Virus record (IMG/VR): IMGVR_UViG_3300009128_000125
Coordinates: 1 to 24,274 of that record
Source: a virus
Length of the DNA: 24,274 nucleotides
Direction: 5' to 3' (one strand)
Numbering within the stretch: the first letter of the stretch is position 1; every line of letters starts with the position of its first letter. Both the position numbers and the translations under genes were made by a program. This document shows positions 2,655-24,274 of this stretch, in pieces. The notes below the pieces were generated by a model. It saw only the letters and a list, made by a program, of their open reading frames with translations, made no database searches and was not told where the DNA came from.

Positions 2655-3155
2655 ATGAGCAGAAGAAAAAGAGGAATAAAAAAAGCTATCTTAAATGAGA
2701 TCAAAGCTGGTATTCAGAAGAAGGTTAAGACACCGATAAACTATGATGACAAAGAAAACGGTATTGTAAAGCTAAATAAATATGGTAATTTTCCAGATGC
2801 ATGGAGATATTTTGGAGGAGCTGAACATTGGCTCTTTGATTTATTAACACTAACACATACAAGATCACCTGAAGATGACTACATCAGAACAATAGACGGT
2901 GATAATCCATATGAAGAAGAAGAAATATTTATTGCAGTTGATCTAATTGCAGAGGTGTTTCATGACAGACCAAGAGAGGCATACATTGCCATAGCGCATA
3001 TATACCATGACATGAAACTGAAAGAGATAGGAGACACATTAGGCTACACTGCAGGGCGTATATGTCAATTGGTCCAGTCAGTAAAGAAAGAACTAGCAGA
3101 ATACATCCGTAACAACCGTAACGACATTGTTACGGCATACAAAATAAAAGATTGA
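2655..3155 (+). CDS. HTH protein resembling sigma-70 region 4
   Basis: This 166-residue protein has a basic N-terminus (SRRKRGIKK), an acidic middle (NPYEEEE around 85-90), and a C-terminal helix-turn-helix at about 120-146 (MKLKEIGDTLGYTAGRICQL). That stretch closely follows the sigma-70 region 4 pattern: a preceding helix, KEIG..LG, then a recognition helix and a KEL ending. No region 2 is evident, so it is not a complete sigma factor. It could steer host RNA polymerase to phage late promoters, or it could be a terminase small subunit, which is also HTH-based and lies in this position. The start is fixed by a TGA immediately upstream of the ATG. The ribosome site is poor, so expression may be low or coupled. 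Three of the CCGTAAC motifs lie in its last codons. Confidence 0.65.
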   Translation: MSRRKRGIKKAILNEIKAGIQKKVKTPINYDDKENGIVKLNKYGNFPDAWRYFGGAEHWLFDLLTLTHTRSPEDDYIRTIDGDNPYEEEEIFIAVDLIAEVFHDRPREAYIAIAHIYHDMKLKEIGDTLGYTAGRICQLVQSVKKELAEYIRNNRNDIVTAYKIKD

Positions 3156-3256: not shown

Positions 3257-3437
3257 ATCAATAGAAGCAGGTGAAGATCCTGCATACACAAGAAGCATAC
3301 TAACACCTCTCCTTAGGTCATTGACATCGTTTGAGGTTGAAAGACGCAGGCAGGAATTCGTTAAGGACAAAGACTATAGTCATAAAAATGATAGATCATC
3401 TCCACTACAGGAAGAAATACGTCAATGGTTGCAGTAA
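3177..3437 (+). CDS. Small helical protein in the terminase small-subunit position
   Basis: This 86-residue protein has a clear ribosome site (AGGAG at 3165-3169) and overlaps the start of terL by 13 bases, so the two are likely translated together. It looks mainly helical, with a basic start (MSKKLKSAIKNR) and a charged C-terminal half (EVERRRQEFVKDKDY). No domain is recognised. Being immediately upstream of, and overlapping, the large terminase gene suggests it is the small terminase subunit or a packaging accessory, although terS proteins are usually 120-200 residues and carry an HTH that I cannot see here. The preceding sigma-like HTH protein is the competing candidate for that role. Two CCGTAAC motifs fall within its coding sequence. 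Confidence 0.6.
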   Translation: MSKKLKSAIKNRNIEETLWELISQTVTSIEAGEDPAYTRSILTPLLRSLTSFEVERRRQEFVKDKDYSHKNDRSSPLQEEIRQWLQ

Positions 3438-4942
3438 GCAAGAAGCTAAATAAAATATTATCTGATCCTTATGAATTCATCAGTCGTCTAAAGATCATTG
3501 ACAAGAAAGGAAAGATAAGAAAACTAAAACCAACATCAGAACAACTAAAAATAATAGAAACACTAGAGACTGAAGAAGATGTTTTGATCTTAAAACCAAG
3601 ACAGATAGGATCATCAACTATAAATCTAGCATATTTATTCTATAAGCTATACACAGCTAAGGAACCTGTAACATTTGCAATCCTATCTCATAAGCTACAA
3701 TCATCTAAACATCTATTAAACATTGTCAAGACATACTACAACAACCTACCTCTACCATTAAGAAGAACAATATCAGAGGACAACACAACAACATTCACAT
3801 TTGCAGATACAGGTGCCTCTATCATTGCAGTATCTGCTGAAGGTAAAGGAGGACTAAGATCATTCACATGCTCTCGTCTTCTCATCAGTGAATATGCATT
3901 TGCACCTAATCCTGAAGAGCTAAAGGCAACAGCCATATCAGCACTAAACGATGGACAGCTAATCATTGAATCAACAGCCAACCAACATGGTGATGCACTA
4001 CATAAAGAGGTGACAGCAGCTCAAATAGGAGACAGTCCTTGGCACCTCCTCTTCTTCAAATGGTTCAATCATGCTCAATACAGCACAAAGCTTCCACCAA
4101 CATTCCAAATAACACAAGACGAAGACAACATAAAACAAAAATACGATTTATCAGATGAACAAATATACTGGAGAAGAAGACAGGTAAAGAGACTAGGATG
4201 GAATAAATTCAGAAGAGAATACCCAGCATGTATAGAAGACGCATTCACACAATCAGGTGATAGCTATTTCACATCAACAGATCTACAATACATAACTGAA
4301 ATACAAATAGAGAAACAAGACCTAACAATCCTACATCAACCTAGACCTGATGATAGATATGCAATAGGTGTCGATGTTGCCTCAGGCAGTGGTGGTGATT
4401 ACAGCGTGATATATGTATTGTCTAAACTATCAGGACAGCCTGTGTGTATCTTCAGGTCCAAACATACCAACACAAATGCATTGGCCAAAAGAATCCAAGA
4501 GCTAGGAACTAAATACAACAACGCCCTTGTTTTATGTGAAGCCAACAACTATGGACACGCATTACTCAATGAACTACGTCATCTAGGATATTCAAAATTA
4601 TGGAAAGACCATAATAAAAAAGACTGGCTAACAACATCAAAATCAAAAATAGAATTGTTTGAAACACTCAAGGCACACATATCAGAAGGAATACTATCAC
4701 AAATAGATAGCATAACAACAGCTGAATTAAGATCATTTGTAATAGACAAAACAGGATTAGCACCATCTATACCATCAAACCTAGATCATCATGGTGACAG
4801 TGTCATAGCATTAGGACTAGCAATCATCTGTCTAAAGCATGTATCAATGCCAACAAGGACACATCTACCTGCATTCATTAAACAACGAAGAGCATCAAAG
4901 ATAAGATCATCCGGCATAGCCAAAAAACAAAGAAGGTACTAG
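3425..4942 (+). CDS. terL: Terminase large subunit (packaging ATPase and nuclease)
   Basis: This 505-residue motor cuts concatemeric DNA and pumps it through the portal into the procapsid. The ATPase domain carries the terminase-type Walker A KPRQIGSST at 57-65, a Walker B-like LLISEYAF at 152-159 and the coupling motif ESTA at 182-185. In the Walker B strand a Ser replaces the usual Asp before the catalytic Glu, a variant known among terminases. The C-terminal RNase H-like nuclease shows GVDVASG (Asp317), LCEANN (Glu372) and HHGDSV (Asp458), the three expected metal-binding acids. The protein appears full length. The start overlaps the previous gene. The stop codon lies inside a hairpin that serves as a terminator for the gene on the opposite strand. 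Confidence 0.95.
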   Translation: MVAVSKKLNKILSDPYEFISRLKIIDKKGKIRKLKPTSEQLKIIETLETEEDVLILKPRQIGSSTINLAYLFYKLYTAKEPVTFAILSHKLQSSKHLLNIVKTYYNNLPLPLRRTISEDNTTTFTFADTGASIIAVSAEGKGGLRSFTCSRLLISEYAFAPNPEELKATAISALNDGQLIIESTANQHGDALHKEVTAAQIGDSPWHLLFFKWFNHAQYSTKLPPTFQITQDEDNIKQKYDLSDEQIYWRRRQVKRLGWNKFRREYPACIEDAFTQSGDSYFTSTDLQYITEIQIEKQDLTILHQPRPDDRYAIGVDVASGSGGDYSVIYVLSKLSGQPVCIFRSKHTNTNALAKRIQELGTKYNNALVLCEANNYGHALLNELRHLGYSKLWKDHNKKDWLTTSKSKIELFETLKAHISEGILSQIDSITTAELRSFVIDKTGLAPSIPSNLDHHGDSVIALGLAIICLKHVSMPTRTHLPAFIKQRRASKIRSSGIAKKQRRY

Positions 4943-4959
4943 ACTATTAATCTAGCACC
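4921..4959 (-). terminator. Intrinsic terminator of the reverse-strand gene, inside the terL end
   Basis: Read on the minus strand, GGTGCTAGA and TCTAGTACC pair over nine base pairs (one G-U) around a seven-base loop, and are followed directly by TTCTTTGTTTTTTG. That is a textbook Rho-independent terminator 28 bases beyond the reverse gene's stop. On the + strand the same hairpin has an A-C mismatch and no following T-run, so it acts in one direction only. The U-tract lies within the last codons of terL. Confidence 0.7.
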
Positions 4960-4986
4960 TCCCATTCATCTCAATATCTTCGGTAA

Positions 4987-5268
4987 CTACACCTCTTCGA
5001 TATCCCAGCCAGTCACCAACTGTCCTGTCTTCTTGCTCACCTTCACTTCCTCTACTCGAGAGAAGCTGAAGGCAGCCATGTCGTCTGACGATTCGTCTGT
5101 GGTAACCATCAACCTTGCCTCATAGTACGGGCTGTTACTATCAATTAGCATGCCTGTGTCTATCATCATGCATGTCCCAGTCCATGTGTTGTTAGCATCC
5201 TCAGTGTCTGAGAATCTGTATTCCTGCCCAGGCTCTATTACTAGTTTTACTGTTGTCTCATTTTCCAT
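4987..5268 (-). CDS. Small acidic protein on the reverse strand, unknown function
   Basis: This 93-residue protein is the only supported gene on the minus strand. AAGGA (plus-strand 5276-5280) lies seven bases before the ATG, a TATAAT lies upstream and a strong terminator follows, so it is a complete transcription unit. It is acidic (about 19 Asp/Glu against 7 Lys/Arg). Alternating hydrophobic stretches (TVKLVIEPGQEYRFSD, YYEARLMVTTD, AFSFSRVEEVKVSK) suggest a small beta-rich fold with no membrane segment or signal peptide. I recognise no family. Self-contained units dropped between virion genes are called morons and often encode host-altering or exclusion functions. Its leader shares a motif with that of the capsid gene, which hints at high late expression and would also suit a decoration protein. 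Both ideas are inference. Confidence 0.75.
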   Translation of the reverse strand: MENETTVKLVIEPGQEYRFSDTEDANNTWTGTCMMIDTGMLIDSNSPYYEARLMVTTDESSDDMAAFSFSRVEEVKVSKKTGQLVTGWDIEEV

Positions 5269-5298
5269 TTGTTTTTCCTTTTGTTTGTTTGTTTGTTC

Positions 5299-5349
5299 AT
5301 AGGATTATTCCTATATTAATATTATATTTAGATCATTTCAGGTGTATTA
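5299..5349 (-). promoter_or_regulatory. Promoter and palindromic operator-like site for the reverse gene
   Basis: On the minus strand a perfect TATAAT occupies 5326-5321, with only a weak -35 (AATACA, 5348-5343, 16-bp spacer). The predicted start of transcription, about 5314, coincides with the palindrome ATAGGATTATTCCTAT (5299-5314; 6-bp arms, 4-bp centre), where a bound repressor would block initiation. Downstream comes GAACAAACAAACAA, then the ribosome site. A TATAAT on the + strand at 5348-5353 could serve the portal gene. The promoter boxes are suggestive, not proven. Confidence 0.4.
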
Positions 5350-5383
5350 TAATTATCTGTTTTAAACAACATAAAATAAACAA

Positions 5384-5401
5384 TCTATTAATAATGAGGG
5401 A
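5384..5401 (+). repeat. 18-bp leader repeat, copy 1 (before portal)
   Basis: TCTATTAATAATGAGGGA is identical at 5384-5401 and 10793-10810. In both places it sits 9 bases before an ATG (portal, adaptor) at the head of a new block of genes: here after the reverse gene, there after a terminator. GAGGG provides the ribosome site. The upstream TCTATTAATAAT is more than translation needs, so it may be part of a promoter or processing site. A shorter version, AATAATGAGAGG, precedes the gene at 16530. Confidence 0.65.
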
Positions 5402-5409
5402 ACAACTAT

Positions 5410-7053
5410 ATGGCTAAACAATCTGAAATAGCATTCATCCAGGCAGTAGTACAAGAACATACTGACACCTGGGAAAAGAAACAACCAGAACTAAAAAAAT
5501 ATAAGCAAACATATGAGACCAGATTCTGGGAAGGTGAAGCATACAACGACAACATGATTAGAATAGAAACAGCAGATGCTTATGGATTCATTGAAGGATT
5601 CATCTCATCTCTATTCAGCAAACAACCAGGCATAGAGGTTGGCGACGACATATCATCAGTAGGAAATCCAAAAGCAATCAAAGATATATGCAACAGGTTT
5701 CTCTTTGATTCATGGCAAACAATTGAGTCAGCTGCACGTATGGCATTGATCTACACAAACGCTGGATTAAAGCTAAGCCCTAATGAAAACAGCAGTAATA
5801 TATACGACAAAGCTAAAATCAGACCTATCCCTCCTTGGGAAATGATAATAGATAATGATGCAACACATTGGCTAGATCAAAGGTATGTAGGGCACAGATA
5901 TTTCTTAACTGTATCAGAGGCATCAGCAAGATTCGGAAATAAACAATGGACACCCGTAGTTAAAGAAGATTATTTTACAAGCAAGAATAAATCATACAGG
6001 CATAGTGATAATACAAACCTACCACCTGAATATCTATATATTGAATTGGTAGAACTATATGATATGATCAACGACAAACTATTCTTTTGGACACCTCATT
6101 GGAAAGCAGGACAAGATATATTAGAAATAACTGAGATACCAATTAGAACATACGACGGACAACCACTACCAGCTATATCACCACTGTTCTTTAACAGACA
6201 ACCAGAACGTCCATTAGAAGGTATCAGTTCTATCAGTCGTATTTATGACCAGCTATATGAAAAGAATATATTAAGAAGCTTCTGGGCCAATGCAATAAGA
6301 CGTGATAGCAGACAGTTCCTTTATAAAGAAGGTGCATTCGATGAAGAAGCATTAGCACAAATAACAGCTGGTATAGATGGAGCAATGATCCCAGTAGATG
6401 CTGAACACCTGACTGGACTAATCACAGAGGTCCCTGTAACACCTATCTCCTCCAACCATGATAGATACCTAATGAATGTAGAAGCCGACCTATCACGAGG
6501 TAGTGTGTTGGCACCATTCACAAGAGGAGAGGCAACCAAAGCAACAGCAACAGAGATAGGTGCATTGGCTCAATATACAAGCAGTGAAATAGGAAGACTA
6601 GCAAGAGAAAGAGATGGGGCAATAGCAATTCTCTCATTGATATACATTAGGTTCTTGTCTCTTATCACAGATGAAATCCAAGAACCGTTGATCATCAATG
6701 GAGAGACAGTTGTCTTAGACAGCAATGCATTGAAAGGTAAATATAAATACGTGGCATTGGATCAAGCAGCAACACCAATGAGCGAGGCAATGAAACAAAA
6801 ACAATTCCTGGAACTACTACCAACGTTAGGACAGCTAGGTGTTAATCCTCAAATCATAAAAGAAGAATTAGTTAGAATGTTTAATCTTTCTGAGTTGCTA
6901 TTACAGGAGCCAGAACCAGTAACACCTGAACCAGTCCAACCTCCATCACCAGAAGAAGCCCTACCACCAGAAGGCGGATCACTAGGAACAGCACAGACTG
7001 ATGTACCACCAGAGATTATGGCAATGGTTAGCCAACTGCGAGGAGAGGTTTAA
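5410..7053 (+). CDS. Portal protein
   Basis: At 547 residues this is the head-tail connector through which DNA enters and leaves the capsid, forming a ring of twelve at one vertex. Evidence is its place after terL and before scaffold and capsid, its length, and a portal-like pattern: a helical N-terminus (KYKQTYETRFWEGEAYNDNM), a conserved mid-region with PPWEMIIDNDATHWLDQRYVG, and a long helical stretch with GEATKATATEIGALAQYTSS and ARERDGAIAILSLIYIRFLS before the C-terminus. The tail is rich in Pro and Glu (about 495-530) and looks disordered. It resembles podovirus portals more than HK97-type ones, though no single signature is decisive. The ribosome site GAGGG is nine bases upstream. The stop overlaps the next ATG by one base (TAATG). 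Confidence 0.85.
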   Translation: MAKQSEIAFIQAVVQEHTDTWEKKQPELKKYKQTYETRFWEGEAYNDNMIRIETADAYGFIEGFISSLFSKQPGIEVGDDISSVGNPKAIKDICNRFLFDSWQTIESAARMALIYTNAGLKLSPNENSSNIYDKAKIRPIPPWEMIIDNDATHWLDQRYVGHRYFLTVSEASARFGNKQWTPVVKEDYFTSKNKSYRHSDNTNLPPEYLYIELVELYDMINDKLFFWTPHWKAGQDILEITEIPIRTYDGQPLPAISPLFFNRQPERPLEGISSISRIYDQLYEKNILRSFWANAIRRDSRQFLYKEGAFDEEALAQITAGIDGAMIPVDAEHLTGLITEVPVTPISSNHDRYLMNVEADLSRGSVLAPFTRGEATKATATEIGALAQYTSSEIGRLARERDGAIAILSLIYIRFLSLITDEIQEPLIINGETVVLDSNALKGKYKYVALDQAATPMSEAMKQKQFLELLPTLGQLGVNPQIIKEELVRMFNLSELLLQEPEPVTPEPVQPPSPEEALPPEGGSLGTAQTDVPPEIMAMVSQLRGEV

Positions 7054-7265
7054 TGCCGATACATGAATATGCACATAATGCACAACAGAAATTACAATGC
7101 ACACATACAGAGGACGTCATGTACAAGATGTCTGATGAGGTACCTAAGGAAATAGAATGCCCAATGTGCAATAAGATATTATTAAAACAAATATCATCAA
7201 CATCTTTCAGTCTCCGTGGTGGCGGCTGGTATGCTGATGGTTATACAAACAAGAGGAAACAATAA
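7053..7265 (+). CDS. FmdB-type zinc-ribbon protein, short form
   Basis: This 70-residue protein starts MPIHEY, has CPMC near the middle, and ends STSFSLRGGGWYADGY, which matches the C-terminal block of the FmdB family (usual form MPIYEYxC...CPxC...SxFxLKGGGWY). The first CxxC pair is lost (AHNAQQ replaces it), leaving Cys16 and nearby His as possible ligands, so zinc binding may be altered. FmdB-like proteins are common between portal and scaffold genes of phages, and their function is not established; regulation or virion assembly have been suggested. It overlaps portal by one base and the next gene by one base, so all are translationally linked. A second family member lies at 7715. Confidence 0.7.
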   Translation: MPIHEYAHNAQQKLQCTHTEDVMYKMSDEVPKEIECPMCNKILLKQISSTSFSLRGGGWYADGYTNKRKQ

Positions 7266-7711
7266 TGAGAGAAGAATTTTTAGAAGAGAACTGGGAACCT
7301 GAATTTACGAAACAGGAATTGTTAAAGGAAATGCAACTACATATAGAACAGTTTGAGTCTTTTATTGAGCACGCTGAATCATCAGAAGAAGCTGCGTTCT
7401 GGAAGGATGCAAAATCAGAAACTAAAGAGCGTCTTGCTAAGGCGGCAATGATTGTCACACAAACCGAATACGATGCACAAAAAGGTGAAGGTCCTGGTGT
7501 TATTGGTGTTGCAATAGATTATTGGTCTGATAAAATACCCAGTGGAGACAGTGATGAATCATCATTCGATGAACACCAAGATAAGCGTCATTTAGAAGAA
7601 AGATTAGATGATTTATATTATCGTTTAGAAAATGAAGAAGACGAAAAAGAAAGAAAAAAAATCAATGATGAGATTTTCTCTATTCAGAATAGCTTAAAGC
7701 GCTTAAAATAA
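7265..7711 (+). CDS. Acidic coiled-coil protein, unknown, with distinct codon use
   Basis: This 148-residue, highly charged protein has a Glu-rich N-terminal helix (about 5-60) and a C-terminal coiled coil (about 108-148, with HLEERLDDLYYRLENEEDEKER). Between them is a short non-helical part (GEGPGVIGVAIDYWSDKIPS). No family is recognised. Leucine is coded mainly by TTA and arginine often by CGT, whereas neighbours favour CTA and AGA. This points to later insertion between the two FmdB-type genes. Its ATG overlaps the preceding stop (TAATG), so it would be co-translated. The charge and coiled-coil content are compatible with an assembly chaperone or an inhibitor of a host protein, but nothing in the sequence shows which. 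Confidence 0.7.
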   Translation: MREEFLEENWEPEFTKQELLKEMQLHIEQFESFIEHAESSEEAAFWKDAKSETKERLAKAAMIVTQTEYDAQKGEGPGVIGVAIDYWSDKIPSGDSDESSFDEHQDKRHLEERLDDLYYRLENEEDEKERKKINDEIFSIQNSLKRLK

Positions 7712-7714
7712 ATC

Positions 7715-8158
7715 ATGCCTATGTTTGAATACACATGCAAGAACGGACACATCACTGAAGAACTATTCTTTGTTGGTGAAAAGATCAAAGCATGGATGAA
7801 ATGTCAGTGTGGAAAGAGGGCAATGAAACAAATACCATTGACAGCCAAGATGACACATATGTGGATGGGACAATGTGAAACAAATGGTGTCAATGGATAC
7901 TATGATGCAGGCCTAGGATGCACAGTGCATTCAGCTCATGAGGCAGACAAGATAGCCAAAGAGAAAGGACTAGTCAGAGAGACAGACCTGGGATCACATT
8001 GGTGGGATGATAACATGAACAAACAAAAAGCTGATGCCGACAAACATAATGCCACTGTCAAAACATACCAAGACAATATAAAGAAATTCGATGGCAACAA
8101 AGAAAAGGCAGTGCAAGAAACATTCCCAGCTCATGAAATGCTGGCAGAAGGAGACTAA
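7715..8158 (+). CDS. FmdB-type zinc-ribbon protein, extended form
   Basis: This 147-residue protein begins MPMFEYTCKNGHITEELF and continues with CQCG, a better preserved FmdB-like zinc ribbon than the gene at 7053 (Cys8/His12 and the CxC pair as probable ligands). About 95 extra residues follow, including MWMGQCETNGVNGYYDAGLG and the charged helical end. The GYYDAGLG stretch recalls phage proteins in which an FmdB ribbon is fused to a C-terminal domain of unknown function. It appears to be a diverged paralogue of the 7053 product. No Shine-Dalgarno sequence is visible three bases after the previous stop, so translation probably depends on coupling. Confidence 0.7.
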   Translation: MPMFEYTCKNGHITEELFFVGEKIKAWMKCQCGKRAMKQIPLTAKMTHMWMGQCETNGVNGYYDAGLGCTVHSAHEADKIAKEKGLVRETDLGSHWWDDNMNKQKADADKHNATVKTYQDNIKKFDGNKEKAVQETFPAHEMLAEGD

Positions 8159-8160
8159 CA

Positions 8161-8619
8161 ATGGCAACAGACAAAGAGAAATTTGAACAAGAGCTTGTTG
8201 AAGCACAACAAATAGAAGATAACAATATACAGACATTGGCCCCAACAGGTGCTTTCAGTTCCAAGAAGATGAATGGATTGGTCATTGCCTTAAACAACCT
8301 ATCAGCACTATTCGGATGGGAACAACTACCACGCGTTACAGCAGACATTAACGGTTCAATTCCAAATGATATAATGAGAAAGCTATTGACATTATCAGCA
8401 GCCATAGATGATGCAATAACAGAAGGAATATTAGATCAAGATAATCAAATAGACACTGACATATCTGATGACCACGGATTACTAATGCTATCATCAGCAA
8501 TATCAAAGCTAACAAGAAACAAGAAATTCAAGCGCTTCCTTGAACAACCAATTGAAAACACTGAAGCAACAGAAGAAGACACCCTCAATCCAGAGGAACT
8601 ATTCAATCAACGCATTTAA
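8161..8619 (+). CDS. Helical protein of unknown function, upstream of scaffold
   Basis: This 152-residue acidic, probably all-helical protein has a good ribosome site (GGAG, eight bases before the ATG) two bases after the previous stop. No motif is recognised. Residues about 30-60 (FSSKKMNGLVIALNNLSALF) and 70-110 look like amphipathic helices. The ends are charged and likely flexible. A gene of this size between portal and scaffold is common in podoviruses and is usually annotated as hypothetical. It may take part in procapsid assembly, but that rests only on position. Confidence 0.7.
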   Translation: MATDKEKFEQELVEAQQIEDNNIQTLAPTGAFSSKKMNGLVIALNNLSALFGWEQLPRVTADINGSIPNDIMRKLLTLSAAIDDAITEGILDQDNQIDTDISDDHGLLMLSSAISKLTRNKKFKRFLEQPIENTEATEEDTLNPEELFNQRI

Positions 8620-8633
8620 ACAACGGAGAAATA

Positions 8634-9497
8634 ATGCAATCAACAACAGAGACTGTCACAGACACCACCTCACCAGAGACCACACAAGCAACCCCAGATG
8701 CTACCCCTATAGATAACACTAATGATGACACAGGTGTGGCACAGAATGAAACGTCGGTAGCCTTAGACACATTACCACAATCTACAATAGAACAACTAGT
8801 CAATGAATCATTTGAAGACTATAGTGAATTCAGTGATAACACAAATCACACAGGTATGAGACCACTGCATGAACTACTAAAGCACCTACCTGAAGATGCT
8901 AGGAAACATGTTGCTAACCTTAGATCATCATACACAACTAAGACACAGGAATTAGCACAGTTAAGAGCAGACATCAATGCAGAAAGAGAGGCATTACTAA
9001 AAGAAAGAAAAGCTTTATATGAAGGTGATTTTGCAGACAATGTCAATAAACTAGCACAAGAACCAGAGACACCACATGATGTATGGACTGAAGAGGGCAT
9101 TCAATCTCGTATTCAACAAGAGGCTGCCAAGATGTTTCAACAAATGCTTAATCCTTTACAAGAACAGATACAACTAGACAAACGACAGAATGATCTAGCA
9201 AGGTTTAAAGAGACTAATCCAGATCTAATGACTGATGAATATCGGATGCCTGTTGCCAGGCTACTGCAATCAAGACCAGAGCTAAGACTAGAAGATGCTT
9301 ATTACATTATAAAGGCACAAAGACAGAATGACCTTGAATCACAGTTGGTACGAGAAAGAGATGAATTAAGATCAAGACGTCAAGAAGCTCTATTAAAAAC
9401 ATCTACAGGATCAAACAGTCGTGGCAATGGAACACCTAAATTCAAAGATGCTTGGTCTGCATTTCAGTACCATAAGAACAATGCTAACAAGAACTGA
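8634..9497 (+). CDS. Capsid scaffolding protein
   Basis: This 287-residue protein would guide assembly of the capsid shell and then leave or be degraded. Support comes from its position just before the major capsid gene, an acidic Thr/Asp-rich disordered N-terminus (about 1-75), a pattern seen in podovirus scaffolds (LPEDARKHVANLRSSYTTKT at about 84-103), long coiled coils at 100-125 and 160-255, and a short basic C-terminus (GNGTPKFKDAWSAFQYHKNN) of the kind that binds coat protein. Scaffolds diverge quickly, so the call depends on these features together. GGAG lies about seven bases before the ATG. The gene is followed by a long leader before the capsid gene. Confidence 0.8.
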   Translation: MQSTTETVTDTTSPETTQATPDATPIDNTNDDTGVAQNETSVALDTLPQSTIEQLVNESFEDYSEFSDNTNHTGMRPLHELLKHLPEDARKHVANLRSSYTTKTQELAQLRADINAEREALLKERKALYEGDFADNVNKLAQEPETPHDVWTEEGIQSRIQQEAAKMFQQMLNPLQEQIQLDKRQNDLARFKETNPDLMTDEYRMPVARLLQSRPELRLEDAYYIIKAQRQNDLESQLVRERDELRSRRQEALLKTSTGSNSRGNGTPKFKDAWSAFQYHKNNANKN

Positions 9498-9685
9498 TTT
9501 AAAAATACATTAACTATGTAAGGAGCAATCTTTCCCGTCCTTTTAAAGGAGAACTGTAGAGACTAATTACCTCATATCAGTCACCTCCAATAAATACTGG
9601 GGAGATAGGTATTTAAAAACATATCAATGGTTGATAACTGTTAAGACGATATCGAACAAACAAACAACAAATAGGTTAAAATATA
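9498..9685 (+). promoter_or_regulatory. Long leader of the major capsid gene
   Basis: These 188 bases contain no supported gene. They hold two ATTTAAAAA copies (9497-9505, 9611-9619), the near-palindrome TCCTTTTAAAGGA (9539-9551), an inverted repeat TATCAA-TGG-TTGATA (9622-9636) and CGATATCG (9647-9654). GAACAAACAAACAA (9654-9667) follows, then a weak ribosome site (TAGGT) 11 bases before the ATG. No consensus promoter is convincing. The last 30 bases are A/C-rich and unstructured, which would favour strong translation. Confidence 0.55.
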
Positions 9686-10723
9686 ATGACAATTTCAAAT
9701 GAGCTCCTATCATCAACACTGTACAGTATTCGTGACAGTGAGGTAGATGAGCTATTCAACAAGGTCGCTTTTTTAGACGGCGCCCGTAAGCATGGTGGTA
9801 TCATCACTGAAGATGGTGGAACAAAGATCCAACGTCCTCTAGCTCTAGCAGAGCACAGTACCATCACTGACCTCCCAACAGGTTATGAAGCAGTATCTCT
9901 TACAGTGAATGGTGTTATGTCACCAGCAGCTTTTGAATGGTCTGATTTCGTAGCTCCTGTAGTTATCTCTAGGCGTGAAGAATTAGAGAATAGTGGAGAG
10001 AAAGCAATCGTTAAGATTGTAGAAGCACGTATGCGTAATGTTATGGGGCTCCTTCGTAGAGAACTAAACCAGCAGATCCTTCGAGGTAATTCAGCAACAC
10101 TAACAACACTAAACACGTTGAACGGTTACAATGCAACAGCAACCGCTGAAGGTTTGTTATATGCAGAAACAGTAGCAACACAACAAGGTCTAGCAGCTAC
10201 AGTTGGTGGTGTGGCACGTTCTTCAACAACAGCTCCTGGTTGGTCTAACCAAGCAGTTGATATCGGAGCAGCATTCAACACAGACGGTATTCGTTTGATG
10301 CAAGAAGCTTATCTTCGTGGTAACAGTGTTGCTCCTATGGGTGATGTTGATCTAGTAATCCTTTCAGAGGCTGCTATGGCTAACTATCGTAGAGCTCTAT
10401 TTGATAACGAACGTTATGTAAATGAAAAGGTTCTTGATGGCGGACGTATGCAACTAGCATTTGCTGGTGCAGCTGTTGAACAAGATGTAAATATGGGATT
10501 CACTGAGACATCTGCTGATTGGGGTGCTGGACCAATTTCTGGTTATGCATTGAATTTTGATGGTGTTAAACTAGCATTCCATAAGGATGCAGATTTTGCT
10601 GTATCTGATTTTGAGCATGTTAATGGAACAACAACACGTGCAGCACAGGTATATGTCAAATGTCAGTTGATTGCGGACCATCTTGGTTCTCAGGCTGTAT
10701 TGTTTGATGGAGACACCTGGTAA
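9686..10723 (+). CDS. Major capsid protein
   Basis: This 345-residue protein should form the icosahedral shell. It follows the scaffold gene and precedes a terminator, and its codons shift toward GGT, GCT, CGT and GTT, as expected of the most abundant phage protein. The sequence has an N-terminal helical start (LLSSTLYSIRDSEVDELFNK), a beta-rich centre and a C-terminal domain with VDLVILSEAAMANYRR and LNFDGVKLAFHKDADFAVSD. These are consistent with an HK97-type coat fold of the kind found in podoviruses, though I cannot confirm the fold from sequence alone. No separate decoration domain is obvious; the Ala/Thr-rich part at about 145-190 may be a surface insertion. No prohead protease gene is seen, fitting a scaffold that is recycled. 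Confidence 0.85.
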   Translation: MTISNELLSSTLYSIRDSEVDELFNKVAFLDGARKHGGIITEDGGTKIQRPLALAEHSTITDLPTGYEAVSLTVNGVMSPAAFEWSDFVAPVVISRREELENSGEKAIVKIVEARMRNVMGLLRRELNQQILRGNSATLTTLNTLNGYNATATAEGLLYAETVATQQGLAATVGGVARSSTTAPGWSNQAVDIGAAFNTDGIRLMQEAYLRGNSVAPMGDVDLVILSEAAMANYRRALFDNERYVNEKVLDGGRMQLAFAGAAVEQDVNMGFTETSADWGAGPISGYALNFDGVKLAFHKDADFAVSDFEHVNGTTTRAAQVYVKCQLIADHLGSQAVLFDGDTW

Positions 10724-10756
10724 TAACATTAGGTTCTTTAGGGCCTACTATATACT

Positions 10757-10794
10757 AAGGAGCCTTCTATTAACGGAGGCTCCTTTTTATTTTC
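10757..10794 (+). terminator. Intrinsic terminator after the capsid gene
   Basis: AAGGAGCCT (10757-10765) and AGGCTCCTT (10777-10785) form a perfect 9-bp stem with an 11-base loop, followed by TTTATTTTCT. It lies 33 bases after the capsid stop and would separate the head genes from the tail genes, so much capsid mRNA would end here. Curiously the loop (TCTATTAACGG) resembles the start of the 18-bp leader repeat just downstream. Confidence 0.85.
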
Positions 10795-10810
10795 TATTAA
10801 TAATGAGGGA
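10793..10810 (+). repeat. 18-bp leader repeat, copy 2 (before the adaptor gene)
   Basis: Identical to 5384-5401. Placed directly after the capsid terminator and nine bases before the adaptor ATG, it is where a promoter for the tail genes would be expected. Its GAGGG also acts as the ribosome site. Confidence 0.65.
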
Positions 10811-10818
10811 CACAACAT

Positions 10819-12282
10819 ATGAATTTATCAGAGCTCAGAGCTAAAATAAAAAATGTCACCGACTATCTTCCAGAGAATGATGAATACGATATTCAGATAG
10901 ATGAACTAGTCAATGACGCATACCAAAGAATATGGACAGGTAAGCGATGGACATTTGCACAAAAGAAAACATACATTAACACATACCCAGACATCACACA
11001 TGAATCAACAGGAATGGTTGCTAATGTGACTGATGGACAACGACAGATTATATTTCCTGCTGGTCTTGTCCCTGGCTTACAAGGAAATGAAGAAATATAT
11101 GAAGGACAAATCATTGAGATCCAAGGACGTGAATATACCATTGACCAAATATCAGGAATGGCAACACAGGCTATTCGTGTTAGGGAACCACTAAGGGCAA
11201 CAACTACAGTTGCTGATGATACATGGATTATCAAACATAGATATTACACACTACCTTCAAACACCATAGAGCTCCTATCAGTCTCCAATCGTGATGTACC
11301 TAATGGTGTTCCTGGTGTTACAACCAAACTAGCATGTATCGATGCACCATATGAGGAATCAGCCAATATAAGAGAAGACAGCACAAGCACCTATGCAGAT
11401 AGTTATATCCTAACACCACCAACAATCGTTGCTGCAGCAGAGAAATTAAATGTTGTCGTCGAAGAAGATGGTGATCCAGGTGCAGGTGATATACCTAACA
11501 GTTATTGGATTGAATTCTGTTGGGCATTTTATTGGGATGGAGGACATATAGGACCACTATCAGAATCATTCACAGCACAAACAGATAAAGGAGGTCAAGG
11601 AGGTTCTCCTCTGTTAAGACTATATCCTGTATCAGCAGACAATCGTTCTATTCAGTCACCACCTTATGTAGCAGTTACAGATGTAGAGAGGAATCCATAT
11701 GAAGGTTATCGTAAGGTCTTCTTCTATAATAGCAACTATGACCATATAAACGGAACACGTCTTGGTCTTCCTACATGGAGAATGATTACAAACAAAGATG
11801 AACACACACCATTTTTAGCTGAAGATGAAGATGACAATATTACAATTCGTTGGATGTCTGAACTACATCAAGGTAATCCTAGGTATGAGGAACATGATGG
11901 TCAGCACCAACGTATCAGACCATATCCAAGGCCACAATCCACAACCAATTATGAGGAACATGATGAGAACCCAGAGAGACAGTTCTCGCAACTAGAGACT
12001 AGATATTATTACAAGCCTAACCTATTGACACTAAACACTGACACGCCAGAGATGCCGTATGAAATGCATAGCTGTATTGTCAATGCTGCATTGGAACACG
12101 TGTTTATAAAGAATGGTAATGCCTCAATGGCACAGTTATACACAAAACGCCTGGCCGAAGATATGAAACGTCTAGAACGTAGATATACAGATCGTGTTGA
12201 TGTTCAATATCAAAGAGGTTCATTCCATTCAGGGCAACGAGCAATACGCTTTGATACTGCATCACTAAAAATGAAGAGCTAG
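10819..12282 (+). CDS. Head-tail adaptor (connector), enlarged
   Basis: This 487-residue protein probably binds under the portal and joins it to the nozzle. The first 55 residues (LSELRAKIKNVTDYLPENDE, then IDELVNDAYQRIWTGKRWTF) match the usual opening of podovirus adaptors: a helix, a paired helix with N-D-A-Y, and R-W-x-F. The C-terminal helix (MPYEMHSCIVNAALEHVFIK, then QLYTKRLAEDMKRLERRYTD) is also typical. Adaptors are usually 170-250 residues. The excess lies in the middle (about 90-400) and includes a beta-sandwich-like piece around 228-350 that resembles one in the next protein. The ribosome site is GAGGG in the 18-bp repeat. The gene ends one base before the nozzle ATG. Confidence 0.7.
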   Translation: MNLSELRAKIKNVTDYLPENDEYDIQIDELVNDAYQRIWTGKRWTFAQKKTYINTYPDITHESTGMVANVTDGQRQIIFPAGLVPGLQGNEEIYEGQIIEIQGREYTIDQISGMATQAIRVREPLRATTTVADDTWIIKHRYYTLPSNTIELLSVSNRDVPNGVPGVTTKLACIDAPYEESANIREDSTSTYADSYILTPPTIVAAAEKLNVVVEEDGDPGAGDIPNSYWIEFCWAFYWDGGHIGPLSESFTAQTDKGGQGGSPLLRLYPVSADNRSIQSPPYVAVTDVERNPYEGYRKVFFYNSNYDHINGTRLGLPTWRMITNKDEHTPFLAEDEDDNITIRWMSELHQGNPRYEEHDGQHQRIRPYPRPQSTTNYEEHDENPERQFSQLETRYYYKPNLLTLNTDTPEMPYEMHSCIVNAALEHVFIKNGNASMAQLYTKRLAEDMKRLERRYTDRVDVQYQRGSFHSGQRAIRFDTASLKMKS

Positions 12283-12283
12283 A

Positions 12284-14443
12284 ATGAAAACAAATCCAAC
12301 AAAGAGCACACAGTTTGAAGGTGTCGATGAAAGGTACCTAGCCAAACATTCTAAAGCAGGTAAAATAAAGAACCTTAAGGTTGATCCAGAAGGTTTAGGA
12401 CTGTCTAATGAATGTGGTTGGGAACCGTTACATTACCGCCAGCTTAATCCGACCGGGCTACTAAACTATACACAGGTCTTAAACATGGAATTCAAACCAT
12501 GTCGTGCATTATCAGTATGGGCTAGGCATGATGGAGCTGAGGTTTATTATCTTAAAGAGGCTGATGGTGTTCTGAACTATGCAATGGGGAATAGCACATC
12601 ACTATCTGTTGCACATTATGATCATGTAACGTTATCTTCAGGAAGACATGAGCCAAAACCAAATGAGATAGGCACACAGTTTATTCCTTATGGACGATTT
12701 AATCTAATTATAAATGGATATGATGAGCCGTTCATGTTCTTCGGGCGTGGATATGTCAGACCCTTTGGATTCAGACTACCAACACCTACACCTTCTGTTA
12801 TGGACGTTGAACCAGATTATTATTCAAATGCATCAGCAACAACAGATGATAAGACATGCATTCATTTCAGTGAAAAAGGAACCAAAGGCCTAGGCAATTC
12901 AGCAGTTGGTGATGCTAATACATATAGATACAAGATGAGCTTTATCACTGATACAGGTAGTGAGAGCCCCTTGTCTGATGCAGCTGTCGTTAATTGGACA
13001 ATAACGGCAGGTAATGAAGGGCGTTATGGTGTAATGCTCAATGATGTACCAACCGGTCCAAAAGGAACAGTAGCACGTAGAATATATAGGACACCTAATC
13101 TAGAAGATGGACAGGTTTCAGGTAAAGGTGTATTTTATTTTGTCAAACAAATAGATGATAATATTACAAAGCAATGGACTGATATTATTAGTGATTCACA
13201 TCTTACAATAGAGGCACCGTCAATTGCTGATAGTGTTATTTTAGGTCATGGACATAATGTTGGAACTGAATGGGATAACAGGCTTTGGATCGCTAAAGGT
13301 AACAAGGTATTATATTCAGACAAGAATAAACCAGAACAATTCGGAGCATTTAACTATTTTGATATGGGCATACAGAATGGTGGGCATGTTACAGCTATAG
13401 TTCCTTATTATTCCTCCCTCATAGTCTTCAGAGAGAACAGCATCTCAATGATTAGACCTACAACAGAAGGCTATACAATTGGGCAAATATCAGGAAACAT
13501 TGGAACATCAGCAACAAACACAATCAAGGTTGTACCAAATGTAGGTGTAATGTTCCTAACAAAGAAAGGATTATATAACCTATCAGGCGGCCTTCAAGGT
13601 GGAAGCCAGGTTTCCATACAGGCAATAACAACGGATGTAACAGAGACAATCCAGCGTATCTCTGCCAATGCTCTACCTAGGGCCACGGCCACATATAGTT
13701 CAAAGGAACAAGAATATTGGTGTCATTTCCCCATCGACGGAGATACTGAGAATAGTATGGGAATTGTTCTTCACACTCAAACAGGACAATATTCTTTAAG
13801 ATACACAGACAATAGAAAAGATATGAAATTTACGCAGTTGGACACTGATCCTGAAGGTTGGATTATTATTGGAACTATACCTCGAGAGACTACAGGATCA
13901 GCTATACCAGAAAATCAGATATGGAAGAATGTAGGGCTACAGGTATGGTCAGCAATAAATATGAAAGGATATATTTATCAGGATGCTAAGGCTGGATTTG
14001 AATCACCACACTATGAATATCAGATTATAGAAGGTGATACAAGGGAGGAAGCATTATATGAATCAGTCTGGATGCACCTAGGAATAAATCAGAAGATCAG
14101 GGTGTCCTCTATAGAGGTTGATATTATCACACAAGGAAACAATCAGATCAATTTTGAATATGGTATTGATGAAACAGATGATTGGAATACAACTAAATCT
14201 GTGCAACAACAGGTACCAGACCGTAACAATGATGTTACATATGGTGTTACGGGGACAACGCAAACAGATGATGCTATTATAAACACATCAGACTATGGAG
14301 ACAATCGTTACACCAGGTTACGGTTTGATGTTTCAACAAGACAGGTCAGATCATTTAGGTTTAGATTAAAGAGCACATCAGTGTTTCATGTGGTATCATA
14401 CAATTTACATATGAATCCTGGACAACGAAGGACAGTGGTATGA
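12284..14443 (+). CDS. Tail nozzle protein (beta-propeller type)
   Basis: This 719-residue protein likely forms the lower part of the short tail, as T7 gp12 and P22 gp10 do. The central region has repeated beta-propeller-like strands with NRLWIAKGNKVLYSDKNKPE (about 330-350), VTAIVPYYSSLIVFRENSIS and GVMFLTKKGLYNLSGG, patterns common in these nozzle proteins. Residues about 215-300 (YRYKMSFITDTGSESPLSDA ... RRIYRT) look like an inserted fibronectin/Ig-like domain. The C-terminal part is beta-rich. The start is one base after the adaptor stop. The last codon overlaps the next gene in an ATGA. Three CCGTAAC-type motifs occur at 14221-14323, near its end. Confidence 0.8.
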   Translation: MKTNPTKSTQFEGVDERYLAKHSKAGKIKNLKVDPEGLGLSNECGWEPLHYRQLNPTGLLNYTQVLNMEFKPCRALSVWARHDGAEVYYLKEADGVLNYAMGNSTSLSVAHYDHVTLSSGRHEPKPNEIGTQFIPYGRFNLIINGYDEPFMFFGRGYVRPFGFRLPTPTPSVMDVEPDYYSNASATTDDKTCIHFSEKGTKGLGNSAVGDANTYRYKMSFITDTGSESPLSDAAVVNWTITAGNEGRYGVMLNDVPTGPKGTVARRIYRTPNLEDGQVSGKGVFYFVKQIDDNITKQWTDIISDSHLTIEAPSIADSVILGHGHNVGTEWDNRLWIAKGNKVLYSDKNKPEQFGAFNYFDMGIQNGGHVTAIVPYYSSLIVFRENSISMIRPTTEGYTIGQISGNIGTSATNTIKVVPNVGVMFLTKKGLYNLSGGLQGGSQVSIQAITTDVTETIQRISANALPRATATYSSKEQEYWCHFPIDGDTENSMGIVLHTQTGQYSLRYTDNRKDMKFTQLDTDPEGWIIIGTIPRETTGSAIPENQIWKNVGLQVWSAINMKGYIYQDAKAGFESPHYEYQIIEGDTREEALYESVWMHLGINQKIRVSSIEVDIITQGNNQINFEYGIDETDDWNTTKSVQQQVPDRNNDVTYGVTGTTQTDDAIINTSDYGDNRYTRLRFDVSTRQVRSFRFRLKSTSVFHVVSYNLHMNPGQRRTVV

Positions 14444-15156
14444 GAACATACGAAAAGAAATCAATAGAAGAGAATAACATTGCCAAAGCGTCTGATATAA
14501 ATACTAAGACAAGCAACTATTATTCTCAGTTAAATGGAACACTAGGACAAAACAATCTACCTTTAGACAGTGTTGATATAACACACCTAGACAATCCAAC
14601 ACGTACAGCATTAACAACACAAACTAATACTGTGATGCCAACCCAAGCGTTTTATGTAACAGAAGGTTGTTTGCCAGGAACGAAAACAAATGGCGTTATG
14701 GATCCTAGAACAACATACGAATATGATGATACTGATTTTGTTGTTGGTTGGATCTCTTTATTACCAAGATTAGGAACAGCAGATGGTGTCTATTTATCTT
14801 TTCAGTCACAAGCAGGAATGCTTAAAGGAAATGCAACAATAGACATTGGAAGGTTATTAGGGACTGAATATTCTGTAGATGGACAAGGAAACGTAACGTT
14901 TAATCCTATAGGTGAAGAATGGAGATTACAAATAGGTGTCTTCGTTAATAATGTTTTGGTTGCAGAGACCGATAACATTCCATCACGAAGAGGAACAATA
15001 TGTCTTCCATATTCTATTCCAATAGACGCTGTGTGGTGTGAGGTTGAGATAAAATTCAAAGCAACTAAGCAGGTACATACCCTGATGCCCAATGTTATAG
15101 CGCCTGGTGTGTCTGTGTATTCATCAGAGCTATGGTGTAGGAATCAATATAGGTAA
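14440..15156 (+). CDS. Virion appendage protein 1 (related to the next two)
   Basis: This 238-residue protein opens with a helical segment (NIAKASDINTKTSNYYSQLN) of the 'start at an element, N, aromatic' type common at the N-termini of phage fibre and appendage subunits that dock on the tail. The rest is beta-rich, ending in SSELWCRNQYR. Two later genes have comparable N-terminal patterns and size, so they seem to be tandem diverged paralogues. I infer a tail or head appendage, possibly host-recognition related. No enzymatic motif is visible. It starts inside the nozzle gene's stop (ATGA), so translation is coupled. Confidence 0.6.
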   Translation: MRTYEKKSIEENNIAKASDINTKTSNYYSQLNGTLGQNNLPLDSVDITHLDNPTRTALTTQTNTVMPTQAFYVTEGCLPGTKTNGVMDPRTTYEYDDTDFVVGWISLLPRLGTADGVYLSFQSQAGMLKGNATIDIGRLLGTEYSVDGQGNVTFNPIGEEWRLQIGVFVNNVLVAETDNIPSRRGTICLPYSIPIDAVWCEVEIKFKATKQVHTLMPNVIAPGVSVYSSELWCRNQYR

Positions 15157-15162
15157 AACATA

Positions 15163-15813
15163 ATGACAACATTAGAGAACAATAGAAAGGAACCTGGGGA
15201 CAGGATCAATGACACAGAGCTAAATCAGATATTTACTGATGTGGTGACTATGTCGGCAACTATAGACAAAGACAACACAGGTAGGGAATGGGTATCCCGA
15301 AAACACATTGATTGGGGCAGTAGTCCATGTCATCCAAGCACATGGAAATTATTTAATACATCAAACGTATGGACAACATCTAGTGAAACACCATCTGTCC
15401 CAAATCTTGGTGTTCCTTGGTATATAGTTACAAACAAAACAATGAGAGAAGGTGATGTTTTTAGGATAACATACAGTCAAATGGTTGAAATGCTAGATGT
15501 AACGGCAGGATTCTTACCTGAGAGCCAGGCATATTTTCAGTTCTTTTATCAGTATGATGATGGTGCAGGTTTGATAGATGAAGCAATGAGCTGTGTCTAT
15601 GGATTTAACGGTTGCATTAATGCTGATCCGACGGTGCCACCAGGCTCACAACATAGACTACAATACTATAGACACCAAATGTCACACCTATACATTAATC
15701 CTGTAGAAGGACGTAATGTATATGCTATCTATGTTAAAGCCTGGGTGGAAAATGCAAACCACACACTACATTTAAAAGAATCAGATTTCAATATCATTGA
15801 GGTGAAAGGATGA
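15163..15813 (+). CDS. Virion appendage protein 2
   Basis: This 216-residue protein starts with KEPGDRINDTELNQIFTDVV, the commonest form of the fibre N-terminal docking motif (G-D-x-I-N-x-x-E-L-N). A beta-rich body follows, with several aromatic and Cys residues (SPCHPSTW, SCVYGFNGC) and an ending of ESDFNIIEVKG similar in type to the SQIEVFYK end of the next protein. It is probably a trimeric or small beta-sandwich decoration of the tail or capsid. The ribosome site is weak (TAGG, with AAAACATA spacing). It overlaps the next gene by four bases (ATGA), so stoichiometry is likely linked. Confidence 0.6.
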   Translation: MTTLENNRKEPGDRINDTELNQIFTDVVTMSATIDKDNTGREWVSRKHIDWGSSPCHPSTWKLFNTSNVWTTSSETPSVPNLGVPWYIVTNKTMREGDVFRITYSQMVEMLDVTAGFLPESQAYFQFFYQYDDGAGLIDEAMSCVYGFNGCINADPTVPPGSQHRLQYYRHQMSHLYINPVEGRNVYAIYVKAWVENANHTLHLKESDFNIIEVKG

Positions 15814-16508
15814 GCTTTACACAACAACATGTATTTGTAGCAGGAGATACACTAAATGCATCAGAGCTTGATATAAACTATAAAGAACTGAAACATTATG
15901 TTAATGGTTCCAATGTTGCTGCTGACCTAGCTGCTGATAGTGTAGGTACAAATGAAATAGTAAAAGGTGAATATCTTTCAGTTGTTTCAGATCATCTATT
16001 CACTATAGGTGATATGCACACTAATTATGTGAATATAGATGTTAATAATAGAGACTATTTCACATATCATTATAAAGCAGTAGATGCATTAGACAATATT
16101 CAGACAATATCTATTCCTGGAACTGGTAAAGAATTCTATTTAGAAAAAGATGCTGATGTTCTTTATGAGGCATATATTCATACACAAATATATGCCAACT
16201 ATTCTGCTGCAGTCATGGGATCAGCATCAACTGAATACAGTGCATTTTATGTATATGTTAATGGTACCAGGCAGGATAGCACAGTCTGTTATGGATTCTC
16301 AGAAAATTATACCGGTGGTTTTGTTAATCCAGATCCTGGTATCGCTGGTGTTAGCGGTGATATGTTAGTTCAGAGATCAATTGTAATGTCTTTTCTGGCA
16401 TGGAACCTTAAGGAAGGAATGAACAAGATAGAGGTAAGAGGACATATTAGATCTGATAAGGGACGCGCTAGTGCTAGGACCAGCCAGATAGAGGTATTTT
16501 ATAAATGA
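15810..16508 (+). CDS. Virion appendage protein 3
   Basis: This 232-residue protein begins with FVAGDTLNASELDINYKELK, again the G-D-x-L-N-A-S-E-L-N-type docking motif. It continues with an Ala/Asp-rich linker (NVAADLAADSVGTNEIVKGE) common just before the shaft in short phage fibres. The C-terminal 130 residues are beta-rich, with FYVYVNGTRQDSTV and a closing SQIEVFYK. It is the clearest fibre-like member of the three. Its ATG lies within the previous gene's stop. It carries no depolymerase motif that I can recognise, so adsorption or structural decoration is the likely role. Confidence 0.65.
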   Translation: MSFTQQHVFVAGDTLNASELDINYKELKHYVNGSNVAADLAADSVGTNEIVKGEYLSVVSDHLFTIGDMHTNYVNIDVNNRDYFTYHYKAVDALDNIQTISIPGTGKEFYLEKDADVLYEAYIHTQIYANYSAAVMGSASTEYSAFYVYVNGTRQDSTVCYGFSENYTGGFVNPDPGIAGVSGDMLVQRSIVMSFLAWNLKEGMNKIEVRGHIRSDKGRASARTSQIEVFYK

Positions 16509-16529
16509 ATAATAATGAGAGGAAACATA

Positions 16530-17225
16530 ATGGGAACAGGTAAAACATTAGGCTCTTTAGCTGGAGGACCAATTGGCGCTGTAGCTGGCACTGTCGGTGA
16601 CACAGTAGGAGGAGGAATAAAAACAGGATTGGCTGCATTAGCAGGTAGTGCTGGTGATTTTAAGAAAACAGAATTAGAAGCCCACATACGAAAGCGCGCT
16701 GCAGAACTACAAAGAAAGAAAGAGATGAACCTATTAGGCTTAACAGATGCTGAAAGGACATTGCTTTCTAGGGATGCTAATCTTGCACAACAAGCAGAAA
16801 GAACTAAACTAATGAATCTTCAGGATCAGGCTTTAGCCAATTTTGGAGGAACAGGTAGTGCTCAGTCTCTATTAGCTGGTCTTCAACAACAAGAAGCACA
16901 AGCAAGAGGACAACAACAGATTGCACATCAAATAGCAGTTAAGGATCTTGAAGCAGCAGCAGAACAAGAAGCACAGCTACAAGCTGATCTTCAATCCATT
17001 GCTGAATTGGAACAAGCAAGAGCTCAAGCCAAAGGCGAGGCAGTTCAAGCTGGTTTGTTAGGTGAGGCACAAAAAGAACAAGACAGAGATCTTATAACAG
17101 AGAATGCTGCATCTAAATTGACAACTGCATTACCTAATGCATCTGAGGAACAAATAAAGAAATGGAGCAGAATGCTCTCTGACAATCCTCAGATGATTGA
17201 TGCATTAACATCAGTATTGAAATAA
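16530..17225 (+). CDS. Internal virion protein 1 (small ejection protein)
   Basis: This 231-residue protein has a Gly/Ala-rich hydrophobic N-terminus (GTGKTLGSLAGGPIGAVAGT, then GGGIKTGLAALAGSAG) suited to membrane insertion, followed by a long Gln/Ala/Glu-rich helical region (about 60-200). This composition and its place first among three internal proteins match T7 gp14 or P22 gp7-like ejection proteins, which form an outer-membrane pore. The start at 16530 is preferred because AGAGGA (16518-16523) lies six bases before it; an in-frame ATG at 16515 overlaps that ribosome site and would add only five residues. The GKT near the start is not a P-loop, because the GxxxxGK context is absent. Confidence 0.7.
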   Translation: MGTGKTLGSLAGGPIGAVAGTVGDTVGGGIKTGLAALAGSAGDFKKTELEAHIRKRAAELQRKKEMNLLGLTDAERTLLSRDANLAQQAERTKLMNLQDQALANFGGTGSAQSLLAGLQQQEAQARGQQQIAHQIAVKDLEAAAEQEAQLQADLQSIAELEQARAQAKGEAVQAGLLGEAQKEQDRDLITENAASKLTTALPNASEEQIKKWSRMLSDNPQMIDALTSVLK

Positions 17226-17234
17226 GGGGAACAA

Positions 17235-18836: not shown

Positions 18837-18847
18837 GATAAGAATAT

Positions 18848-23956: not shown

Positions 23957-24008
23957 ACAATCCAGCTTATAATGAAAGGAATTCACCATTTAGTCGTAGG
24001 AGAAGAAA

Positions 24009-24274
24009 ATGGGAGCAACAGGAAAATTTAAACACGTTGCAACAGCAACAGGCACAGCAGGTATCACATCAGCTTATTCAGCACATATGGCTGTTGAGCT
24101 ATCACAGGCCACACTAATTCAGTCAAGCTGTTTTATCTATGTTGATGCATTAGCAGGTGGAGCTACAACGCTCACAACACGTATCACATCAGATGCAGCA
24201 GGAGATGAATGTCTTGTACCTGACACAGAAGCAGATATCAGCCTTGGCATCACAACAGCAACAGAGGGAACAGT
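24009..24274 (+). CDS. Partial structural-type protein, runs off the window
   Basis: The first 88 codons of a gene that continues beyond the window. TAGGAG lies six bases before the ATG. The visible part (MGATGKFKHVATATGTAGIT ...) is small-residue, Thr/Ala-rich and beta-prone, like phage virion proteins such as decoration, tail or fibre subunits. No family can be named from this fragment. A TATAAT at 23968-23973 lies upstream but has no -35 partner. Confidence 0.65.
   Translation, partial: MGATGKFKHVATATGTAGITSAYSAHMAVELSQATLIQSSCFIYVDALAGGATTLTTRITSDAAGDECLVPDTEADISLGITTATEGT

Follow-up and report, generated by a model that had tools for sequence, protein, structure and literature searches.

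A probable minus-strand moron between terL and portal in an uncultured podovirus

The locus and its minus-strand gene

We analyzed a virus record of 24,274 bases, referred to here in its whole length as the window, whose genes include terL, portal, major capsid protein and an SU10-type adaptor. Our interest lies in the interval between terL (terminase large subunit; 3425-4942, plus strand) and the portal gene (5410-7053, plus strand), which is SU10-portal-like at a score under Pfam's cut-off. The major capsid protein gene (9686-10723) and an SU10-adaptor-like gene (10819-12282) follow, and the best Pfam matches for portal and adaptor are the SU10 portal and adaptor families. A sigma-like protein is encoded at 2655-3155 (NCBIfam TIGR02937, 9e-7, under the curated cut-off). 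Neither portal nor adaptor matched any of 50,697 phage records, TerL is merely 28% identical to that of Roseobacter phage CRP-7, and a search of bacterial genomes with the portal returned no match, and with it no host or prophage. IMG/VR holds many relatives, with TerL identities mostly of 42-56%. The window's virus is a member of an uncultured, SU10-tail-like podovirus family. We note that one IMG/VR record (3300009008_000940, 18,381 bp) carries a portal 100% identical to that of the window; its contig begins near the insert described below, about 150 bp into the portal gene (residue 50), which could reflect differences between strains at this block or be a coincidence.

The terL/portal interval contains a 93-codon ORF on the minus strand (4987-5268; MENETTVK...GWDIEEV) with an ATG start. 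As the first-pass annotation had stated, the product is acidic, with a predicted pI of 4.06 and a net charge of -12.5 (about -12), and the ATG has a good ribosome site, AAAGGAA, about 8 nt upstream (Shine-Dalgarno region 5274-5282, minus strand; core AAAAGGAAA). That annotation also called it the only minus-strand gene, which holds in the sense that no other intergenic minus-strand ORF combines an ATG with a Shine-Dalgarno site. In 115 of 5000 shuffles (2.3%) of the 467-nt gap an ATG ORF of 93 codons or more arose, and the length by itself is only moderately unusual. The frame is supported as coding by its codon-position bias (G at codon position 1, 0.38) and by the 13 and 7 stops found in the other two minus frames across the ORF. 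GC3 is 0.56 in this gene versus 0.21-0.46 in the 21 other genes, all on the plus strand (terL, 0.26; portal, 0.29), and its codon-usage score is the lowest among all genes scored. These values show a codon usage foreign to that of its neighbours. The next outliers, an Eco57I-like DNA methyltransferase (46-1287) and a zinc-ribbon/HTH-like ORF (1416-1892), also have foreign codon usage, which fits accessory genes.

We searched widely for homologues of the 93-residue protein. No match above cut-off was obtained in PHROGs, Pfam, NCBIfam or PADLOC, and no homologue by tblastn of phages and plasmids. Viral contigs gave no match to short exact peptides, a search that reaches close relatives only, and none to a degenerate alignment that included two invented conservative variants used purely as a search device; genome contigs gave none either. 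PDB sequence matches, including ribosomal L24, all had E values above 0.4 and were dismissed as noise. AlphaFold2, run on this one sequence, returned a model with a pLDDT of 48, which is unusable; Foldseek matches of that model to levivirus coats (probability of at most 0.20) were dismissed as meaningless. Domain searches found no nuclease domain (GIY-YIG, HNH or LAGLIDADG) in the protein. As for Acr families, the general libraries PHROGs, Pfam, PDB sequences and PADLOC yielded no significant match, and no phage RNA polymerase regulator in PHROGs, Pfam or NCBIfam matched above cut-off. Rfam and tRNA scans were empty.

Transcription and translation signals

The block has a strong intrinsic terminator on the minus strand (4963..4931), 23 nt beyond the stop codon of the 93-codon ORF. 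Its hairpin has a stem of 15 pairs, the most among the terminator-like sites in 4900-24274, and folds at -20.0 kcal/mol versus a shuffle mean of -7.5 (z of -5.3). The U-tract covers about 4922-4930, within terL codons. Because the 3' arm and the U-tract are complementary to the end codons of terL (...AAA AAA CAA AGA AGG TAC TAG), a single stretch of DNA reads as KKQRRY-stop on the plus strand and as a terminator on the minus strand. On the plus strand the same site folds at -8.6 kcal/mol and has no U-tract. The claim of a one-directional terminator reaching into the end of terL is therefore borne out, and the site is a clear case of the tail of a coding sequence serving as a neighbour's terminator. 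The sequence of this interval thus shows an ORF, a ribosome site and a terminator specific to the minus strand, for which the terL end serves as 3' arm and U-tract.

The same terminator weakens an earlier suggestion that transcription of the minus gene interferes with terL, as a minus transcript would stop within the final terL codons. If anything, the reverse would apply: terL transcripts meet no plus-strand terminator at this site and would run antisense through the 93-codon gene.

Upstream of the gene, a TATAAT hexamer lies at 5321..5326 on the minus strand and a second copy at 5346-5351 on the same strand. TATAAT occurs seven times between genes where 3.2 are expected, a mild enrichment (43 of 1000 shuffles). 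Neither minus-strand copy has an acceptable -35 box, and a promoter scan gave no hit for either on that strand. Hence the hexamers of the proposed TATAAT promoter exist, and by sigma-70 standards they do not rise above chance. The palindrome reported at the expected transcription start, ATAGGA-4-TCCTAT, is likewise present (5299..5314, minus strand) and might form a 5' hairpin or an operator, although its occurrence is at chance level (432 of 1000 shuffles).

A further candidate, not mentioned in the first-pass annotation, is TATTAATA, at 5314..5321 on the minus strand, which shares a base with the first base of the palindrome. This motif has four copies in the 24,274 nt, each intergenic (1928, 5314 ahead of the 93-codon gene, 5386 and 10795), where shuffles predict 0.17 intergenic copies and none of 1000 shuffles reaches four. 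The evidence is suggestive only, since the motif was picked after the portal/adaptor repeat had been seen and since it is its own reverse complement. That repeat is the 17-nt portal leader CTATTAATAATGAGGGA (5385..5401, plus strand), which contains TATTAATA as its core and is identical to 10794-10810, ahead of the SU10-adaptor-like gene. TATTAATA ahead of the minus gene suggests a phage-specific promoter, which is plausible because the window carries the sigma-like gene noted above and SU10 encodes a sigma factor of its own (PMC4281155). As a family-wide portal motif TATTAATA was rejected (16 of 91 versus 9.1 expected); relatives prefer a CTTGACTTT-like sequence ahead of portal.

Two of the other copies have surroundings of their own. 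The CTATTAATAATGAGGGA copy at 10794-10810 stands directly 3' of a strong plus-strand terminator (10757-10785) that follows the capsid gene. One base on from the TATTAATA copy at 1928 begins a perfect 14-nt inverted repeat (ATGGCACATTTAGG, 1937-1950; CCTAAATGTGCCAT, 1985-1998), and the second arm is followed by a short T run, AGGAGG and an ATG at 2013. The true start of the ORF at 1992-2534 is probably 2013.

The leader of the minus gene contains GAACAAACAAACAA (5285..5298, minus strand), 14 nt that recur unchanged in the leader of the major capsid gene (9654-9667, plus strand), a feature likewise absent from the first-pass annotation. The two copies stand 30 and 32 nt before the respective start codons. 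Sharing this element with a capsid gene suggests that the 93-codon gene would be translated efficiently. Such a capsid-like leader sits awkwardly with the antisense effect expected from late terL transcription.

The terL/portal junction across relatives

We collected 157 loci with both terL and portal and reduced them to 92 distinct junctions, the window included. In 68 of the 92, at most 66 nt, mostly 30-50 nt, separate the end of terL from the portal ATG. Twenty junctions, again including the window, exceed 200 nt and all of these carry cargo; the remaining four measure 83-117 nt. In 11 junctions the cargo encodes CxxC proteins with weak EndoVII/HNH similarity, in three GIY-YIG endonucleases above cut-off, and in four N6/N4 methyltransferases, one of them (L093) assigned merely by sequence resemblance to another (L080). 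One further junction (L185) has a 62-aa ORF, an uncertain assignment because a longer TTG minus-strand ORF overlaps it. All loaded junctions other than the window carry their cargo on the plus strand, and the window is the only one of the 92 with minus-strand cargo. The comparison shows the junction, across the sequences sampled, to be a recurrent cargo site of the family, mostly empty and with varied cargo in about a fifth.

The CxxC...CxxC proteins, of about 80-115 aa, come from several clades (L062, L064, L083, L091, L112, L120, L130, L137, L140, L151 and L154), and a Pfam search with two of them gave no match. In several loaded relatives (L091, L053, L130, L154 and others) the cargo gene starts on the terL stop or no more than a few bases away from it and appears to use the terL tail GGAGATAC, which codes for R-R-Y, as its ribosome site. 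Minus-strand GIY-YIG-like genes occur elsewhere in relatives (L016, 2509-2919; L085, 5702-6310), and the window is therefore not alone in having opposite-strand cargo as such.

On a portal tree the junction switches between empty and loaded at least 12 times, a parsimony count from a quick method on a tree with long branches. Close relatives can be unlike in state: L004 is empty where L028 has a GIY-YIG gene, and L057 is empty where L054 has methyltransferases. In the latter pair, a 51-nt block that begins just past the terL stop and extends to the first portal codons is retained beyond the cargo. This geometry, with the portal leader preserved past the cargo, is the same as in the window.

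In the window, the 36 nt before the portal ATG (5374-5409) agree in 23 of 36 positions with the empty junction of L068, likewise 36 nt long; this was the best of 63 junctions compared and a level seen in none of 300 shuffles. From this match we infer the right boundary of an inserted block of about 431 bp, spanning about 4943..5373 from the terL stop to the ancestral portal leader. Direct repeats on either side of the block (10 nt at 5377/5415; 8 nt at 4963/5432) were considered as an insertion scar and set aside, being short enough for chance. Since the window is alone on a long portal-tree branch (0.59) and the relatives with this junction have TerL at most 56% identical to its own, the direction of change, gain or loss of the block, is our reading and is not formally polarized.

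None of the 91 remaining distinct junctions has the minus gene itself, and tblastn over 188 sequences found no homologue. The gene is also absent from 30 longer relative records, in a search that had no positive control. The first-pass annotation had placed the block at 4943-5383 and proposed that it is an independent unit inserted among virion genes. The relatives bear this out, both in the short spacing of most junctions (30-66 nt) and in the repeated loading of the site with other cargo.

A moron and its possible product

A moron is a segment of DNA present in one genome and missing in a relative, typically comprising an ORF, a promoter and a terminator (PMC3029335). The block is absent between terL and portal in relatives, has its own terminator and is unlike its neighbours in composition. 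We consider it very probably a moron, a self-contained minus-strand unit at a recurrent cargo site and thus a known kind of element; this reading follows from the empty and loaded junctions of relatives together with the foreign codon usage. It resembles described morons (PMC3029335, PMC6316719) in having a single ORF, a terminator and a candidate promoter between genes that are adjacent in relatives, and in its unusual codon usage and short product. It differs in lying on the strand opposite the late genes, in borrowing the 3' arm and U-tract of its terminator from the terL coding sequence, and in that its promoter is putative. Against known morons, the opposite orientation and the terminator shared with terL are modest twists. 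In phage SPP1, the morons ORF 3-5 sit between terL (gp2) and portal (gp6) (PMC6316719), exactly the same position, although SPP1 has three genes there and belongs to a different phage group, with no sequence relation shown. Compared with the cargo of relatives (GIY-YIG, N6/N4 methyltransferase and EndoVII/HNH-like CxxC genes), the block occupies the same site, from terL stop to portal leader; unlike that plus-strand cargo, it is on the minus strand, has its own signals and encodes no nuclease or methylase domain.

We weighed three other accounts of the gene and its product. It is improbable that the protein is an abundant virion or assembly protein, such as a capsid decoration or head-tail accessory protein, made as part of the late programme although its gene points the other way. 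Capsid decoration would be a suitable task for a small acidic beta-rich protein, the gene sits among virion genes, and its upstream region has in common with the major capsid gene the 14 leader nt at a near-equal distance to the start codon and with the portal and adaptor leaders TATTAATA; its absence from the other 91 junctions and from the 30 longer records (the latter searched with no positive control), its foreign codon usage and the antisense course that late terL transcription would take all speak against such a role. We give similarly little credence to a regulator of the phage's own transcription, a partner of the sigma-like factor comparable in function to the small protein of phiEco32/SU10 that inhibits the sigma-70 polymerase while activating certain phage promoters. 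Both a regulator of this type and a sigma factor are encoded by SU10 itself (PMC4281155), and the window's sigma-like protein and the SU10 affinities of its portal and adaptor are in keeping with this idea. However, the protein matches no regulator in PHROG, Pfam or NCBIfam, and a core regulator should be kept, whereas this gene is missing at the site in relatives. Finally, the ORF could be an accidental or decaying passenger in a block that serves merely as terminator, antisense RNA or leftover filler after cargo exchange; the 2.3% of shuffles that reach its length, the lack of a homologue in our searches and the homing-type elements gathering at this site in relatives fit that account, but it is quite unlikely given an ORF, Shine-Dalgarno site, codon-position bias and terminator 23 nt past the stop all on one strand, and an ORF that is intact within an otherwise compact genome.

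For the moron at the cargo site, a scheme of expression can be proposed. The minus promoter would lie within 5314-5351 and would be recognized by host polymerase, alone or together with a phage sigma factor, for which the sigma-like protein is a candidate. The transcript would open with a small 5' hairpin, its unstructured CAAA-repeat leader may give good translation, and it would stop inside the 3' end of terL. The 10.5-kDa acidic product, probably beta-rich, might bind and block a host protein; a defence nuclease, a nucleic-acid-binding enzyme and RNA polymerase are conceivable targets, though this step is a guess.

A host-directed inhibitor is, tentatively, the likeliest role of the protein, a conjecture drawn from its size, its acidity, its accessory status and the company found at the site. 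On the functions proposed in the first-pass annotation, a nucleic-acid mimic, exclusion or anti-defence, the searches for homologues and folds spoke neither for nor against. Small acidic inhibitors that mimic DNA exist, for example AcrIF2, of 90 aa (PMC6538845). The 93-residue protein is like AcrIF2 in length, acidity and accessory status, and unlike it in that we detected no relation of sequence or fold; nor is there an HTH regulator gene (aca), common though not universal beside anti-CRISPRs, the block holding a single ORF between start region and terminator. The whole explanation, a moron at a cargo site with a host-directed inhibitor as its product, we place slightly above even chances. 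It is doubtful, though conceivable, that a new family of small acidic, beta-rich inhibitors, made by phages against host defence or RNA polymerase, has its first seen representative in this gene, with a phage-specific TATTAATA promoter, a capsid-type leader and a terminator within the terL frame.

Taken alone, the 93-codon gene is an orphan that carries no larger claim yet. The junction has wider meaning: in a podovirus family common in IMG/VR, the interval between terL and portal is a recurrent site for methyltransferases, homing-type endonucleases and one minus-strand unit, and recurrent cargo sites of this kind are good places to seek new counter-defence genes.
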